Positions 4,709-7,729 of a DNA stretch of 64,000 bases are shown one piece after another. This DNA is from Flavitalea plasmicola. Lineage in GTDB: Bacteria; Bacteroidota; Bacteroidia; Chitinophagales; Chitinophagaceae. The position numbers and the translations under genes were made by a program. The notes beneath the pieces are model-generated. The model was not told the DNA's origin and did no database searches. It saw only the letters and a program-made list of their open reading frames with translations. Positions within the stretch are counted from its first letter, which is position 1, and the number at the start of each line of letters is the position of its first letter. The stretch lies in assembly GCF_030546645.1 (NCBI RefSeq), contig NZ_JAUOTO010000001.1, positions 992,001-1,056,000 of the forward strand, in the 5' to 3' direction.

Positions 4709-6136
4709 CTAGTATTTTGTCAGTTCGGGTTGTACCTCGTCAATATAGGAGAGGATGCCCCCTTTAAGATTATAAAGGTTAGTGAATCCGAATTTTTCTT
4801 CCAGCTCACGAATGGCTTTTGCGCTTCTGCCGCCCATTTTGCAATGAATGACAACATGCTGCTGTGTATCGATCCTGCCTGCGTTGTCGGCTACCGTAGC
4901 CAGGGGGATCAGCTCGCCTCCGATGTTGACGATATCGAATTCATGGGGTTCCCGCACGTCGATAAGCTGGAATTTTTCTCCTCTCACCTGCCAGTCGTAT
5001 AGTTCCTTCGCCGTGATCTCTTTCAGGGGTTTTTCTTCGACGGCTCGCATGCCGCAGAACTGCTCATAATCGATGAGAGCTGTGATCGTCGGATTTTTTC
5101 CGTTGATGGGATTGTCTTCCCTTCTTTTGATATTAAAGGTCCTGCTTTCAAAATTCAGGGCATCGAAGATATAGAAGCGACCGGAAAGGGTTTCACCCAC
5201 GCCTGTAATGACCTTGATTACTTCCAGTGCCTGGAGGCTGCCGATGATGCCTGGCAATACGCCCAGGACGCCGCCTTCCGCACAGCTGGGGACCAGTCCG
5301 GGAGGAGGGGGGGTGGGATAGAGGTCACGGTAGTTGGGCCCGGTGTTGCCGCTGGCATCCGTATAATTGAACACGGACACCTGTCCTTCGAACTGGAAGA
5401 TCGACGCGTAAATGTTGGGCTTGCCCAGCAGCACCGCTGCGTCATTGACCAGGTAACGGGTGGGGAAATTATCCGTCCCGTCCGCAATGACATCATAGTC
5501 TTTTACGATGTCCAGCGCGTTCTGGGAGTTGATATGGGTGTTGTAAATATTCAACTTTATATGGGGGTTCAGGGCCGCCAGTCTTCTCCTTGCAGCTTCT
5601 ACCTTGGGTTTGCCGATCTCATCGATGCCGAAGAGCACCTGCCTTTGCAGGTTGCTGTCGTCCACCACGTCGAAGTCGACGATGCCGAGCGTGCCCACGC
5701 CGGCAGCCGCCAGGTATAACAACACAGGGCTGCCCAGCCCGCCGGAGCCGATGACCAGGACCTTTGCTTTCTTCAGCTTCTCCTGGGCTTCCATTCCGAA
5801 TCCGGGGATGATGATATGCCTGTTGTAGCGCGCCAGCTCTTCTTTTGTGAAAAGCTGGTCCGGGGCGCCGCCGGCGATGGCGGGAACGATGCTGATGACA
5901 GTGTCTTCTTTAACTGCGGTATGCTCCTGCTGGAGGTCGCGAATATCGTTGTTGCCGACGAAAATGTTGACATAAGAACGGATGCTTCCGCCTTCGTCCA
6001 GGAGATGCTTTTTCAGGTCCGGAAAGTTCTGGGTCAGCTCGTTGACCGTGTCCTGTATCGTGCCAGCCCTGACTTCCAGCCGGGCCGTGTTATTGGTGAA
6101 TTTCCTCAGGGGAGTGGGAATGATCACTGTTGCCAT
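4709..6136 (-). CDS. CysO-like sulfur carrier fused to MoeZ-like activating enzyme and rhodanese
   Basis: This 475-aa protein has three parts. Residues 1-90 are a ubiquitin-like sulfur carrier resembling mycobacterial CysO (IPTPLRKFTNN, SYVNIFVGNNDIR) and ending in VPAIAGG at 84-90. Residues 95-365 are a ThiF/MoeB/MoeZ adenylyltransferase with the nucleotide loop GSGGLGSP (130-137), the PPPPGLVPSCAEGGVLG segment and the MoeZ-type DYEQFCGM ending. Residues 375-475 are a rhodanese domain with active-site Cys432 in HCKMGGRS. By family knowledge the enzyme adenylates the carrier's C-terminal Gly and the rhodanese supplies sulfur to make a thiocarboxylate. Here the carrier's Gly-Gly is internal (89-90), so it must be cut free before it can work. 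The gene is last in the operon, 15 bp after mec. Confidence 0.88.
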   Translation of the reverse strand: MATVIIPTPLRKFTNNTARLEVRAGTIQDTVNELTQNFPDLKKHLLDEGGSIRSYVNIFVGNNDIRDLQQEHTAVKEDTVISIVPAIAGGAPDQLFTKEELARYNRHIIIPGFGMEAQEKLKKAKVLVIGSGGLGSPVLLYLAAAGVGTLGIVDFDVVDDSNLQRQVLFGIDEIGKPKVEAARRRLAALNPHIKLNIYNTHINSQNALDIVKDYDVIADGTDNFPTRYLVNDAAVLLGKPNIYASIFQFEGQVSVFNYTDASGNTGPNYRDLYPTPPPPGLVPSCAEGGVLGVLPGIIGSLQALEVIKVITGVGETLSGRFYIFDALNFESRTFNIKRREDNPINGKNPTITALIDYEQFCGMRAVEEKPLKEITAKELYDWQVRGEKFQLIDVREPHEFDIVNIGGELIPLATVADNAGRIDTQQHVVIHCKMGGRSAKAIRELEEKFGFTNLYNLKGGILSYIDEVQPELTKY

Positions 6137-6151
6137 TTTATTTATATTTTA

Positions 6152-6580
6152 TTATGTGAATTGATAATCGATGATCTTTTCTTCTTCAAATTGCTGGTCA
6201 TCATTCAGCAGCCAGGAACGCAGGGTGATGATCTCGTTGTTTAGTACGGAAATGATCAGGTAGGAGAAAAAGGGCTGCGCGGCCACCCGGTCATGCTCTG
6301 AAGGAATGGCCGGATGATTGGGATGGGAGTGGTATACTCCCAGCAAGGTCCAATCGTGATCCAGCGCATGCTGCTCAGCCGTCATGTAATCCTGCGGAGA
6401 GATAGCAAAGCGTCTGCGTTTGTCCCCTTCCTTTGAGTTGTCCACTACCAATACGTCGAGGATAAGGCGTGTGCCGTCTGTTTCTTCCCGGCCGAACATG
6501 AAGCCGCAACATTCATCGGGGAATGTGCTGACTGCATCTTCTATCATTAATTGCCGGACACGGGGTTCGATGATGATCAT
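6152..6580 (-). CDS. mec: JAMM/MPN-family metalloprotease, Mec-like
   Basis: This 142-aa protein is a stand-alone JAMM (Mov34/MPN) zinc protease. The complete motif is visible: Glu23 in PDECCGF, then His84-Ser85-His86, Ser94 and Asp97 (HSH-x7-S-x2-D). In Mycobacterium, Mec cleaves the cysteine made on the C-terminus of CysO, regenerating the carrier. Its position between cysM and the CysO-MoeZ fusion supports the same role. It may also cut after the internal Gly-Gly of the fusion, which is an inference. It starts 1 bp after the cysM stop codon, so the two are almost certainly co-translated from one transcript. Confidence 0.88.
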   Translation of the reverse strand: MIIIEPRVRQLMIEDAVSTFPDECCGFMFGREETDGTRLILDVLVVDNSKEGDKRRRFAISPQDYMTAEQHALDHDWTLLGVYHSHPNHPAIPSEHDRVAAQPFFSYLIISVLNNEIITLRSWLLNDDQQFEEEKIIDYQFT

Positions 6581-6581
6581 G

Positions 6582-7520
6582 TTATAGAATTTTTTTTATG
6601 ACTTCACTGTATTTATCCGCGTTATCGGGTAGCACGGTGACAACCGTCCCTTCTTCAAGGCCTTCGGCGATGCGGATCGCACCGGCCAGGTTGGCTGCCG
6701 AGGACGGGCTCAGCAGGAGCCCTTCATGTTTGTAGGCCGCCCTGATCAGCTCATGGGCTTCTTCGGTGCTGACCTCGTAGTTGGCATCGGCTACTGTAGG
6801 GTCATAGATTCCCGGGACGACGGCTGTTTCCATGTGCTTCCAGCCTTCCAATCCGTGCAAAGCGAAATCAGGCTGCAAAGAGATCAGGCGGATGGATGGC
6901 TTCAACTCCCGCAGACGACGGCCTGTGCCGATAAACGTGCCGGTGGTGCCCAGCCCTGCTACAAAGTGTGTGATGCCGGGGAGCTCTCCATAGATCTCAA
7001 GCGCAGTGGAATGATAATGTGCTTTCCAGTTATATTGATTCTTGTATTGATCGGCATAGTAGTAGCCGGCGGGAGCGGATGCGGCAAGCTCTTTTGCTAC
7101 CTGCTGGGCGCCGTCCGTGCCTTCAAAGCGGGAGGTGAGGATCAACCTTACGCCCAGCGATTCCAGGATATCCTTTCGCTCCTTAGATGCATTTTCCGGC
7201 AGGCATAGCGCAACAGGAATGCCCAGTTCACTGGCAATATGCGCATAGGCTATACCGGTATTACCGCTGGTGGCGTCCAGCAAGGTTCTTTCCCTGGTGA
7301 GGGCGCCGCTTTCAATGGCTTTTCGGATGATGTTGTATGCGGCACGGGCTTTCACGCTGCCTGACAGCTGCATCCATTCTTTTTTTGCATAGATCCGCAC
7401 ATTGTTTTTATTGAACAGGCGGGTAATAGGCTGCAGAGGGGTATTCCCGATCTTTTTCTCCAGCCCCCGGACGGAGGTGAGCAGGTTGCTGTCGATGGTG
7501 AGGTCCGTTGTTGTTGACAT
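6582..7520 (-). CDS. cysM: PLP-dependent cysteine synthase, CysM-like
   Basis: This 312-aa fold-type II PLP enzyme belongs to the cysteine synthase family. The PLP lysine is Lys57 in SGSVKAR, the substrate loop is TSGNTG (84-89), and the PLP-phosphate loop is GLGTTGT (about 189-195). Context with a CysO carrier, a MoeZ-like activator and a Mec protease points to the CysM type, which adds carrier thiocarboxylate to an aminoacrylate, rather than free-sulfide CysK. Where mycobacterial CysM has an Arg for O-phosphoserine (Arg220), my by-eye alignment puts Lys228, so the acceptor substrate is uncertain. The start at 7520 (MSTTTDLT) was chosen because upstream in-frame codons run through the terminator hairpin. 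It is the first gene of the operon. Confidence 0.9.
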   Translation of the reverse strand: MSTTTDLTIDSNLLTSVRGLEKKIGNTPLQPITRLFNKNNVRIYAKKEWMQLSGSVKARAAYNIIRKAIESGALTRERTLLDATSGNTGIAYAHIASELGIPVALCLPENASKERKDILESLGVRLILTSRFEGTDGAQQVAKELAASAPAGYYYADQYKNQYNWKAHYHSTALEIYGELPGITHFVAGLGTTGTFIGTGRRLRELKPSIRLISLQPDFALHGLEGWKHMETAVVPGIYDPTVADANYEVSTEEAHELIRAAYKHEGLLLSPSSAANLAGAIRIAEGLEEGTVVTVLPDNADKYSEVIKKIL

Positions 7521-7533
7521 AATCATCATAAAT

Positions 7534-7563
7534 AAAAAAAGCTCCACTGGTGGTGGAGCTTTT
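7534..7563 (-). terminator. Attenuator terminator before cysM
   Basis: Reading the minus strand, AGCTCCAC (7560-7553) and GTGGAGCT (7547-7540) form an 8-bp stem with a 5-nt loop, extended by A/T pairs, and followed by a run of seven T. It lies between the leader peptide ORF and the cysM start, 14 bp before the latter. The 5' arm can alternatively pair with GGTGGAG inside the leader ORF (about 7618-7612), which would prevent terminator formation. Confidence 0.85.
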
Positions 7564-7593
7564 ATATGTTGTTTATAACAGTTTTTACTAAGC

Positions 7594-7680
7594 TTATGAG
7601 AGGTCATCCTCCACCCAAATAACCGATATTTGCTTACAACAGCAACAACAACAAGTTATATTTGCAAACGTTTGATTCAT
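7594..7680 (-). CDS. Cysteine-rich leader peptide of the cysM operon (28 aa)
   Basis: The minus-strand ORF from ATG at 7680 to TAA at 7594 encodes MNQTFANIT, six consecutive Cys codons (7653-7636, TGT TGT TGT TGC TGT TGT), then KQISVIWVEDDLS. Six Cys in 28 residues in front of a cysteine biosynthesis operon and an intrinsic terminator is the layout of ribosome-mediated attenuation. A ribosome stalled at the Cys codons would leave GGTGGAG free to pair with the terminator's 5' arm. A ribosome that reaches the stop codon would cover GGTGGAG and let the terminator form. The peptide itself is probably not functional. Poly-Cys regulatory ORFs are known in mycobacteria; I know of none described for this phylum. 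Confidence 0.85.
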   Translation of the reverse strand: MNQTFANITCCCCCCKQISVIWVEDDLS

Positions 7681-7697
7681 GTGGGAGAATGATGACC

Positions 7698-7729
7698 TAA
7701 AAGTAGGGAAATTTACTTTCCCCACCAAA
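7698..7729 (-). promoter_or_regulatory. Promoter of the cysM operon
   Basis: On the minus strand TTTG (7729-7726) is followed by a 20-bp spacer and TACTTTTA (7705-7698), a good match to TTTG-N20-TAnnTTTG. Transcription would begin near 7690, leaving a very short 5' end of about 10 nt before the leader peptide ATG. Confidence 0.6.

Follow-up and report, generated by a model that had tools for sequence, protein, structure and literature searches.

Organization of the cysM locus

We analyzed a 64,000-nucleotide (64 kb) stretch of the Flavitalea plasmicola genome, referred to here as the window. On its minus strand lies a gene cluster that, by domain profile matches, belongs to the cysteine pathway (Table 1). 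It opens with a cysM-like gene, whose ATG start is at 7520, and continues with a mec-like gene and with a gene in which a CysO-like (ThiS) domain is fused to ThiF/MoeZ-like and rhodanese domains, a Gly-Gly preceding the ThiF part. The neighboring JAMM peptidase might release the fused CysO-like domain.

Upstream of cysM is a short ORF that runs from an ATG at 7680-7678 to a TAA stop codon at 7596-7594 and contains six consecutive Cys codons (TGT TGT TGT TGC TGT TGT, 7653-7636). It is followed by an intrinsic terminator with a stem of 11 pairs and a loop of 5. The leader segment GGTGGAG (7615-7609) and the 5' arm of the terminator, CTCCACC (7558-7552), can form 7 contiguous Watson-Crick pairs. 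A first-pass annotation of this DNA had described a 28-aa ORF with six Cys codons, a terminator behind it and the pairing between these two segments; our reading and folding of the sequence confirmed each of them. In the whole window, the pattern TGYx4 matched only at 3 overlapping positions, all from the Cys run of the leader, while shuffled windows gave a mean of 0.12 matches and reached three in 0/100 shuffles.

The promoter was named from a Bacteroidota consensus that we take to be TTTG / TAnnTTTG. From its position, the transcript would start at about 7695-7693, some 13-15 nt 5' of the leader ATG, and because the predicted promoter precedes this ATG, the leader ORF should lie within the transcript. 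A transcript starting downstream of the leader ORF, which the first-pass annotation had named as an outcome that would speak against its proposal, is therefore not favored by the promoter prediction. Among the 26 loci listed, 18 had an exact TAnnTTTG whose end lay 14-28 nt ahead of the leader start, and one had its first match at 55 nt; 7 were without an exact match, including Flavitalea plasmicola, whose promoter is a one-base variant. By eye, an inverted repeat (TAGGAAA-N-TTTCCTA) was seen to overlap the promoter in several Chitinophagaceae loci, for example L007 and the Puia dinghuensis locus L011, and its counterpart in the window is GGGGAAA-N-TTTCCC at 7723-7706. This repeat is possibly a transcription-factor operator, in which case the locus would be under dual control.

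Table 1. Features of the cysM locus of Flavitalea plasmicola (positions in the window).
Feature	Position	Strand	Basis
CysO/MoeZ-like fusion, ThiS + ThiF + rhodanese	4709..6136	-	PF02597, PF00899, PF00581
mec-like JAB/JAMM peptidase	6152..6580	-	Prok-JAB PF14464; name mec from context
cysM-like cysteine synthase, PALP fold, 312 aa	6582..7520	-	best match cysM TIGR01138, 271 bits, below the model cut-off of 394
Intrinsic terminator stem-loop, T tract to 7534; 5' arm CTCCACC 7558-7552	7537..7563	-	scan and fold
Putative antiterminator segment GGTGGAG (Trp-Val-Glu codons)	7609..7615	-	complementarity to CTCCACC; co-variation with terminator arm
Leader ORF, 28 aa, MNQTFANITCCCCCCKQISVIWVEDDLS	7594..7680	-	read from sequence; Cys-run ORF kept upstream of relatives' cysM
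Six consecutive Cys codons (codons 10-15 of 28), putative sensing site	7636..7653	-	sequence
5' segment AGGUCAUC, able to pair with leader end GAUGACCU	7690..7697	-	fold; helix z -2.7
Predicted Bacteroidota-type promoter: TTTG (7729-7726), 20 nt, TACTTTTA (7705-7698)	7698..7729	-	sequence; assumed consensus

Conservation of the leader upstream of cysM

Relatives were collected by a scan of one genome per species, which yielded 92 related cysM loci, the nearest in Chitinophagaceae; the best 80 of the 92 were taken. Upstream Cys runs were counted in the 65 loci of L001-L069 that had at least 350 nt upstream (L070-L080 and four shorter loci were excluded). Of these 65 loci, 54 had a short ORF with at least 3 consecutive Cys codons in the 350 nt before cysM, compared with 24 of 3,234 other 350-nt windows from the same loci. 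Runs of at least 5 Cys codons were found in 39/65 loci versus 2/3,234 other windows, and on the antisense of the 350-nt upstream window the corresponding counts were 1/65 (at least 3) and 0/65 (at least 5). Where the run was missing there was often no room for it, since in 7 of the 11 run-less loci the aligned start of cysM lay 2-61 nt behind another ORF of at least 80 codons. In L053 a Cys run is located farther up, at -424, and the start codon of its ORF lies beyond the region inspected; L022 has a weaker CC..C leader with a terminator recognized by eye; L049 and L058 are the remaining run-less loci, without such an account.

A leader scan was performed on 106 upstream regions, four of the best 80 loci having been dropped for less than 150 nt upstream. 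Leaders were detected in 77 of the 106 regions, with a terminator behind 65 of the 77; the 12 leaders for which the scan gave no terminator count against reading these leaders as attenuators. Both the Cys-run ORF and the terminator are therefore conserved across Chitinophagaceae and relatives, as the first-pass annotation had expected of a functional leader. Of 55 related cysM loci that had a leader and an upstream region of 350 nt, 53 were followed by mec as well as by the ThiS-ThiF gene.

A further sample comprised 395 genomes drawn from the phylum. The same cysM occurred in 46 of them at E <= 1e-60, and a run of at least 3 Cys codons was found within 450 nt upstream in 21 of the 30 loci listed of those 46, distant families included. 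Another set of relatives, in which 20/24 cysM loci had a run of at least 3, overlaps the best 80 loci and was kept out of the totals. Among ten loci of other or uncertain phyla (L070-L080 minus L072), a run was detected only in the Chloroflexi locus L076. The ORF that precedes cysM in this Chloroflexi MAG, MVCLCCCLKQGR, resembles a leader, so the arrangement may extend beyond Bacteroidota; the terminator scan was negative at this locus.

Outside the Cys run the peptide varies, from MNQTFANITCCCCCCKQISVIWVEDDLS in the window to MPYHFCSCCCCCCCSSCLAG.. in a Saprospiraceae MAG (L029) and MYKSFLCCCCNCCCLRYHGG.. in Agaribacillus (L064). Poly-Cys peptides could bind metals, and N- and C-terminal residues of the leader are conserved among near relatives, as would suit a short ORF that encodes a working Cys-rich peptide for metal or redox binding, followed by an ordinary, unregulated terminator. 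We consider this explanation extremely unlikely, as there is no cross-lineage conservation outside the Cys run (7 to 36 residues; L001, with an uncertain start, aside), the ORF is absent in the 7 loci with cysM close behind another ORF, and a segment of the leader RNA co-varies with the terminator, as described below.

The commonest Cys runs of cysM leaders have a single TGC amid TGT codons, which perhaps avoids repeat slippage: TGT TGT TGT TGC TGT TGT occurs in 15 leaders and TGT TGT TGC TGT TGT TGT in 14 (same-genome duplicates counted). Inspection of an alignment by eye also suggested a local hairpin at the leader end, either GAGG-ATGA-CCTC or, in other relatives, GGC-GATA-GCC; this alignment, in which the row L187 stands on the wrong strand, entered none of the counts. 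In L027, L030, L034 and L035, two Cys leaders with their own terminators stand in tandem, in the 360 nt upstream of cysM, as an apparently doubled attenuator. The first tandem leader of L034 has a degenerate Cys run, and the first unit of L027 has, by eye, a matching antiterminator, TGTATCGG with CCGGTACA.

Co-variation and spacing of leader and terminator

Pairing was assessed in 61 distinct loci (the 77 leaders minus the 12 without a terminator and minus four duplicate pairs), with the sequence that extends from the Cys run up to the terminator set against the terminator 5' arm. The mean pairing energy over the 61 loci was -13.7 kcal/mol for native combinations versus -10.2 kcal/mol for leaders swapped to dissimilar terminators. 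On average, 18% of swaps were as good as the native pairing. Two observations from this comparison count against an attenuator: this share was 5% or less in just 22/61 loci, and relative to shuffled leaders z was below -2 in only 27/61 loci.

The terminator arms were then grouped into 10 classes by average linkage, single linkage having lumped all 61. The large classes are GGTGGAG:CTCCACC with 33 loci and GGAAAGG:CCTTTCC with 12. The longest Watson-Crick helix had a mean of 5.47 in native pairs versus 4.65 in swapped ones (class permutation p = 0.0013), and the difference was weaker with G-U pairs allowed (6.61 versus 5.71, p = 0.031), all permutation p values given for these loci being optimistic because the loci are related to each other, several of the CCTTTCC class as close-relative pairs. 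The native pair was favored in 8 of the 10 classes; the 2 that did not beat swapped pairs count against an attenuator, as does L023, whose terminator arm is poorly matched by its leader (longest helix 4).

In the CCTTTCC class, which comprises 12 loci, pairing extends locus-specifically into the terminator apex, and the leader tracks it (GTGG:CCAC, CGG:CCG, ATGG:CCAT, CAGG:CCTG and GTGCGG:CCGCAC). The extension had a mean of 2.08 in native versus 0.76 in swapped combinations, and 0/3,000 permutations were as good (p = 0.0003, likewise optimistic). L041 and L042 showed no apex extension in this within-class test, which counts against an attenuator. Compensatory change between the leader segment and the terminator arm, which the first-pass annotation had proposed looking for, was thus upheld both between and within classes. 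The idea that the apex extension bases are free in the terminator was rejected: about half are also paired atop the terminator stem (12/25 unpaired, with the run-on of L066 limited), so the within-class test stands as co-variation only.

The spacing of the elements was determined for the same 61 loci. Median distances were 20 nt from the last Cys codon to the antiterminator, 22 nt from the antiterminator to the end of the stop codon and 28 nt from the stop codon to the start of the terminator. The footprint of a ribosome at a stop codon reaches about 20 nt upstream. A ribosome at the leader stop codon would cover most of the antiterminator, and one at the Cys run would leave it free.

A proposed cysteine attenuator

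The locus is very probably a ribosome-mediated transcription attenuator that senses charged tRNA-Cys. The parts, their conservation, their co-variation and their spacing were all observed: a short leader ORF rich in codons for the pathway product, an intrinsic terminator and a co-varying antiterminator pairing. From these we infer that the leader would be translated, that ribosomes would stall in it, and that read-through would occur at low cysteine.

In the proposed sequence of events, RNA polymerase would start about 13-15 nt 5' of the leader ATG, with a ribosome behind it. When Cys-tRNA is ample, the ribosome would pass the six Cys codons and reach the stop codon. From the first letter of GGTGGAG to the end of that codon is 22 nt, so the ribosome would cover most of the segment there. 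CTCCACC, left unpaired, would then form the terminator, and transcription would halt ahead of cysM. When Cys-tRNA is scarce, the ribosome would stall within the run of Cys codons, some 20 nt short of GGTGGAG, so that this segment would pair with CTCCACC, no terminator would form and cysM-mec-cysO/moeZ would be transcribed. The minimal switch would consist of three segments: the antiterminator, the shared arm and the terminator arm.

Folding of the Flavitalea plasmicola leader with a masked ribosome gave results that depended on the position of the mask. With the ribosome masked at the first Cys codon, GGUGGAG:CUCCACC was paired at the decision point. With the mask at the 3rd or 6th Cys codon, the minimum-energy fold paired GGUGGAG with the 5'UTR and not with the terminator arm, because the free 5'UTR captured it; these folds count against the attenuator and suggest that, in this species, read-through may require a ribosome that stalls early among the Cys codons or another that queues at the start codon. 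A mask at the stop codon hides GGUGGAG, so the absence of the antiterminator from that fold follows from the set-up.

A four-segment attenuator of the trp type would make a conserved part of this 5' pairing. The 5'UTR (AGGUCAUC..CCCAC) would form a protector helix with the antiterminator, an untranslated leader would terminate, and stalling or queuing of a ribosome on the leader would disrupt the helix. The window species fits this arrangement well (z of -4.3 for the whole-leader minimum-energy fold and -2.7 for the protector helix) and is one of 16/61 loci in which the 5'UTR:antiterminator helix has z < -2. The helix is not general, however, with a mean z of -0.9 over the 61 loci and z < -2 in 6/26 of the subset L001-L026 plus the window's own locus. 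The 5' segment belongs to the 5'UTR, ahead of the stalling codons and probably in part ahead of the transcript start, and the predicted start would remove 2-4 nt of the 8-bp helix. We therefore regard the four-segment arrangement as rather unlikely. A conserved trp-type 1:2 protector or pause hairpin was looked for in the 61 loci and was absent, and the doubt that the first-pass annotation had expressed about a classical 5' pause hairpin proved justified: the helix is strong here and unconserved elsewhere. In the three-segment attenuator that we prefer, a 5' protector helix is possible in Flavitalea plasmicola but would not be a conserved part.

Relation to known leaders

The classical enterobacterial trp, his and leu attenuators have stalling codons for the pathway product and mutually exclusive antiterminator and terminator structures. 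The proposed cysM attenuator shares both properties; unlike them, its segment 1 is unconserved and, in Flavitalea plasmicola, lies outside the sensing codons. In Bacteroidota, the Bacteroid-trp RNA is a Trp leader attenuator. Mycobacterial poly-Cys short ORFs are reportedly cysteine-responsive, to go by the title of the 2020 work of Canestrari et al.

In mycobacteria, poly-Cys short ORFs lie upstream of sulfur and cysteine genes (PMC4633059, PMC1262725), and in this the cysM leader resembles them. According to the accessible parts of these sources, the Mycobacterium cys operons have no conserved terminator hairpin upstream (PMC1262725), the Cys codons are near the ORF end and the mRNAs are leaderless (PMC1262725, PMC4633059). 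The cysM leader, in contrast, has an intrinsic terminator, a mid-leader run (codons 10-15 of 28) and a predicted 5'UTR of 13-15 nt. The uORFC-8-2 motif upstream of cysS in Rhodobacterales is, in the accessible part of its description, a short ORF with tandem Cys codons and a terminator stem with a U-tract, for which ribosome stalling at low charged tRNA-Cys has been proposed (PMC8632094). The cysM leader is similar in its Cys-codon short ORF, its terminator and the proposed stalling at low tRNA-Cys. As far as that description extends, uORFC-8-2 belongs to an aminoacyl-tRNA synthetase gene of Alphaproteobacteria and has a pair of Cys codons that usually occupy positions 14-15, within the first stem, whereas the cysM leaders of Bacteroidota precede the cysM operon, typically have a run of 5-7 and place the antiterminator downstream of the run. 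For Bacteroidetes, the accessible part of PMC2864571 lists the Bacteroid-trp motif (RF01692), which is likewise a cis-regulatory leader motif of this phylum and differs in concerning tryptophan.

None of 4227 Rfam families matched the window or eight related loci at the gathering score. For Flavobacterium psychrophilum, one study describes, in its accessible part, clues that amino-acid operons are controlled by leader-peptide attenuation (PMC9723704). The first-pass annotation knew of no Cys attenuator of this type in Bacteroidota, and we likewise found none described in the accessible open-licence literature, where a listing in the supplementary table of PMC9723704 is possible. Because Cys leaders are known in Actinobacteria and, with an intrinsic terminator, predicted before cysS in Rhodobacterales, and neither a Bacteroidota description nor an Rfam match was found, the ribosome-mediated cysteine attenuator is a kind already known, and its cysM-leader family in Bacteroidota appears to be new.

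If the proposal is true, Bacteroidota gain a direct cysteine sensor that responds to charged tRNA and stands in front of a CysM/Mec/CysO-type pathway. The sensing codons, the switch and the terminator would all fall within 150 nt, which makes for an easily tested sensor. The family, tandem duplication included, also forms a natural data set for attenuator evolution, because the antiterminator sequence shifts between lineages while the Cys run stays.

Cys-run leaders without a visible terminator

The Flavitalea plasmicola genome contains 14 distinct runs of at least 5 Cys codons. The context of 8 runs beyond that of the cysM leader was inspected, and only one, at L098, precedes sulfur genes. 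This second Cys-run leader (..SLSCNNSCCCCC, L098:1498-1587 on the minus strand, equivalent to C13:526640-526729) stands before cysH and cysD. It ends SCCCCC-stop, with the stop codon directly after the run, and thus differs in design from the cysM leader; no intrinsic terminator was visible at the cysH leader in this genome. As far as the accessible descriptions of mycobacterial poly-Cys leaders go, it resembles these more than the cysM leader does. Upstream of three cysteine-synthase paralogues of the same genome (L168, L171 and L172), no Cys-run leaders were found.

Among relatives, cysH was present in 33/58, and a short ORF with a Cys run of at least 3 lay upstream in 25 of the 30 loci listed of those 33, the window species' own included. 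Of the other five, two are truncated where the contig stops, one carries only a Cys-codon pair and two carry none. A helix test was applied to 26 cysH loci, after removal of four: two truncated by the contig end lacked a promoter box, and two had no Cys run ahead of a stop codon. In about 9 of the 26, the 5'UTR contains GTAGAC or a variant of it, which can form a helix with the complementary sequence immediately behind the stop codon. The Watson-Crick helix between 5'UTR and post-stop segment was 5.65 in own versus 4.96 in swapped combinations (p = 0.0002; p = 0.0005 with G-U; both uncorrected for relatedness).

These results can be joined in a tentative model, plausible though short of probable, of a Bacteroidota cysteine-leader regulon that uses two RNA mechanisms. 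One would be the intrinsic-terminator attenuator at cysM-mec-cysO/moeZ, in places in tandem. The other would be the terminator-free leader of cysH-cysD, in which the run ends at or near the stop codon, a 5'UTR segment pairs just past the stop and a stalled ribosome holds this helix open. Under this model, one signal would govern both sulfate reduction (cysH-cysD) and cysteine synthesis, through a different leader at each.

Cys runs at the leader end also occur upstream of cysM, in L113-L118, which belong to one family (f24). Their leaders read MSCCCCCCS, VCCCCCS or are longer ones ending CCCCCCS, and the terminator scan found no terminator at these loci. Leaders of this design, with the run at the stop codon and no terminator seen, here and at the cysH gene of the window species, would be compatible with action mainly through translation coupling or Rho, a possibility considered for the mycobacterial poly-Cys leaders, the hairpin of the cysM leader being secondary. 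For the cysM leader itself we judge this very unlikely, given the T-tract intrinsic terminator in the window and behind 65/77 leaders, with its co-varying antiterminator. The leaders of L113-L118 perhaps use a different mechanism for the same gene.
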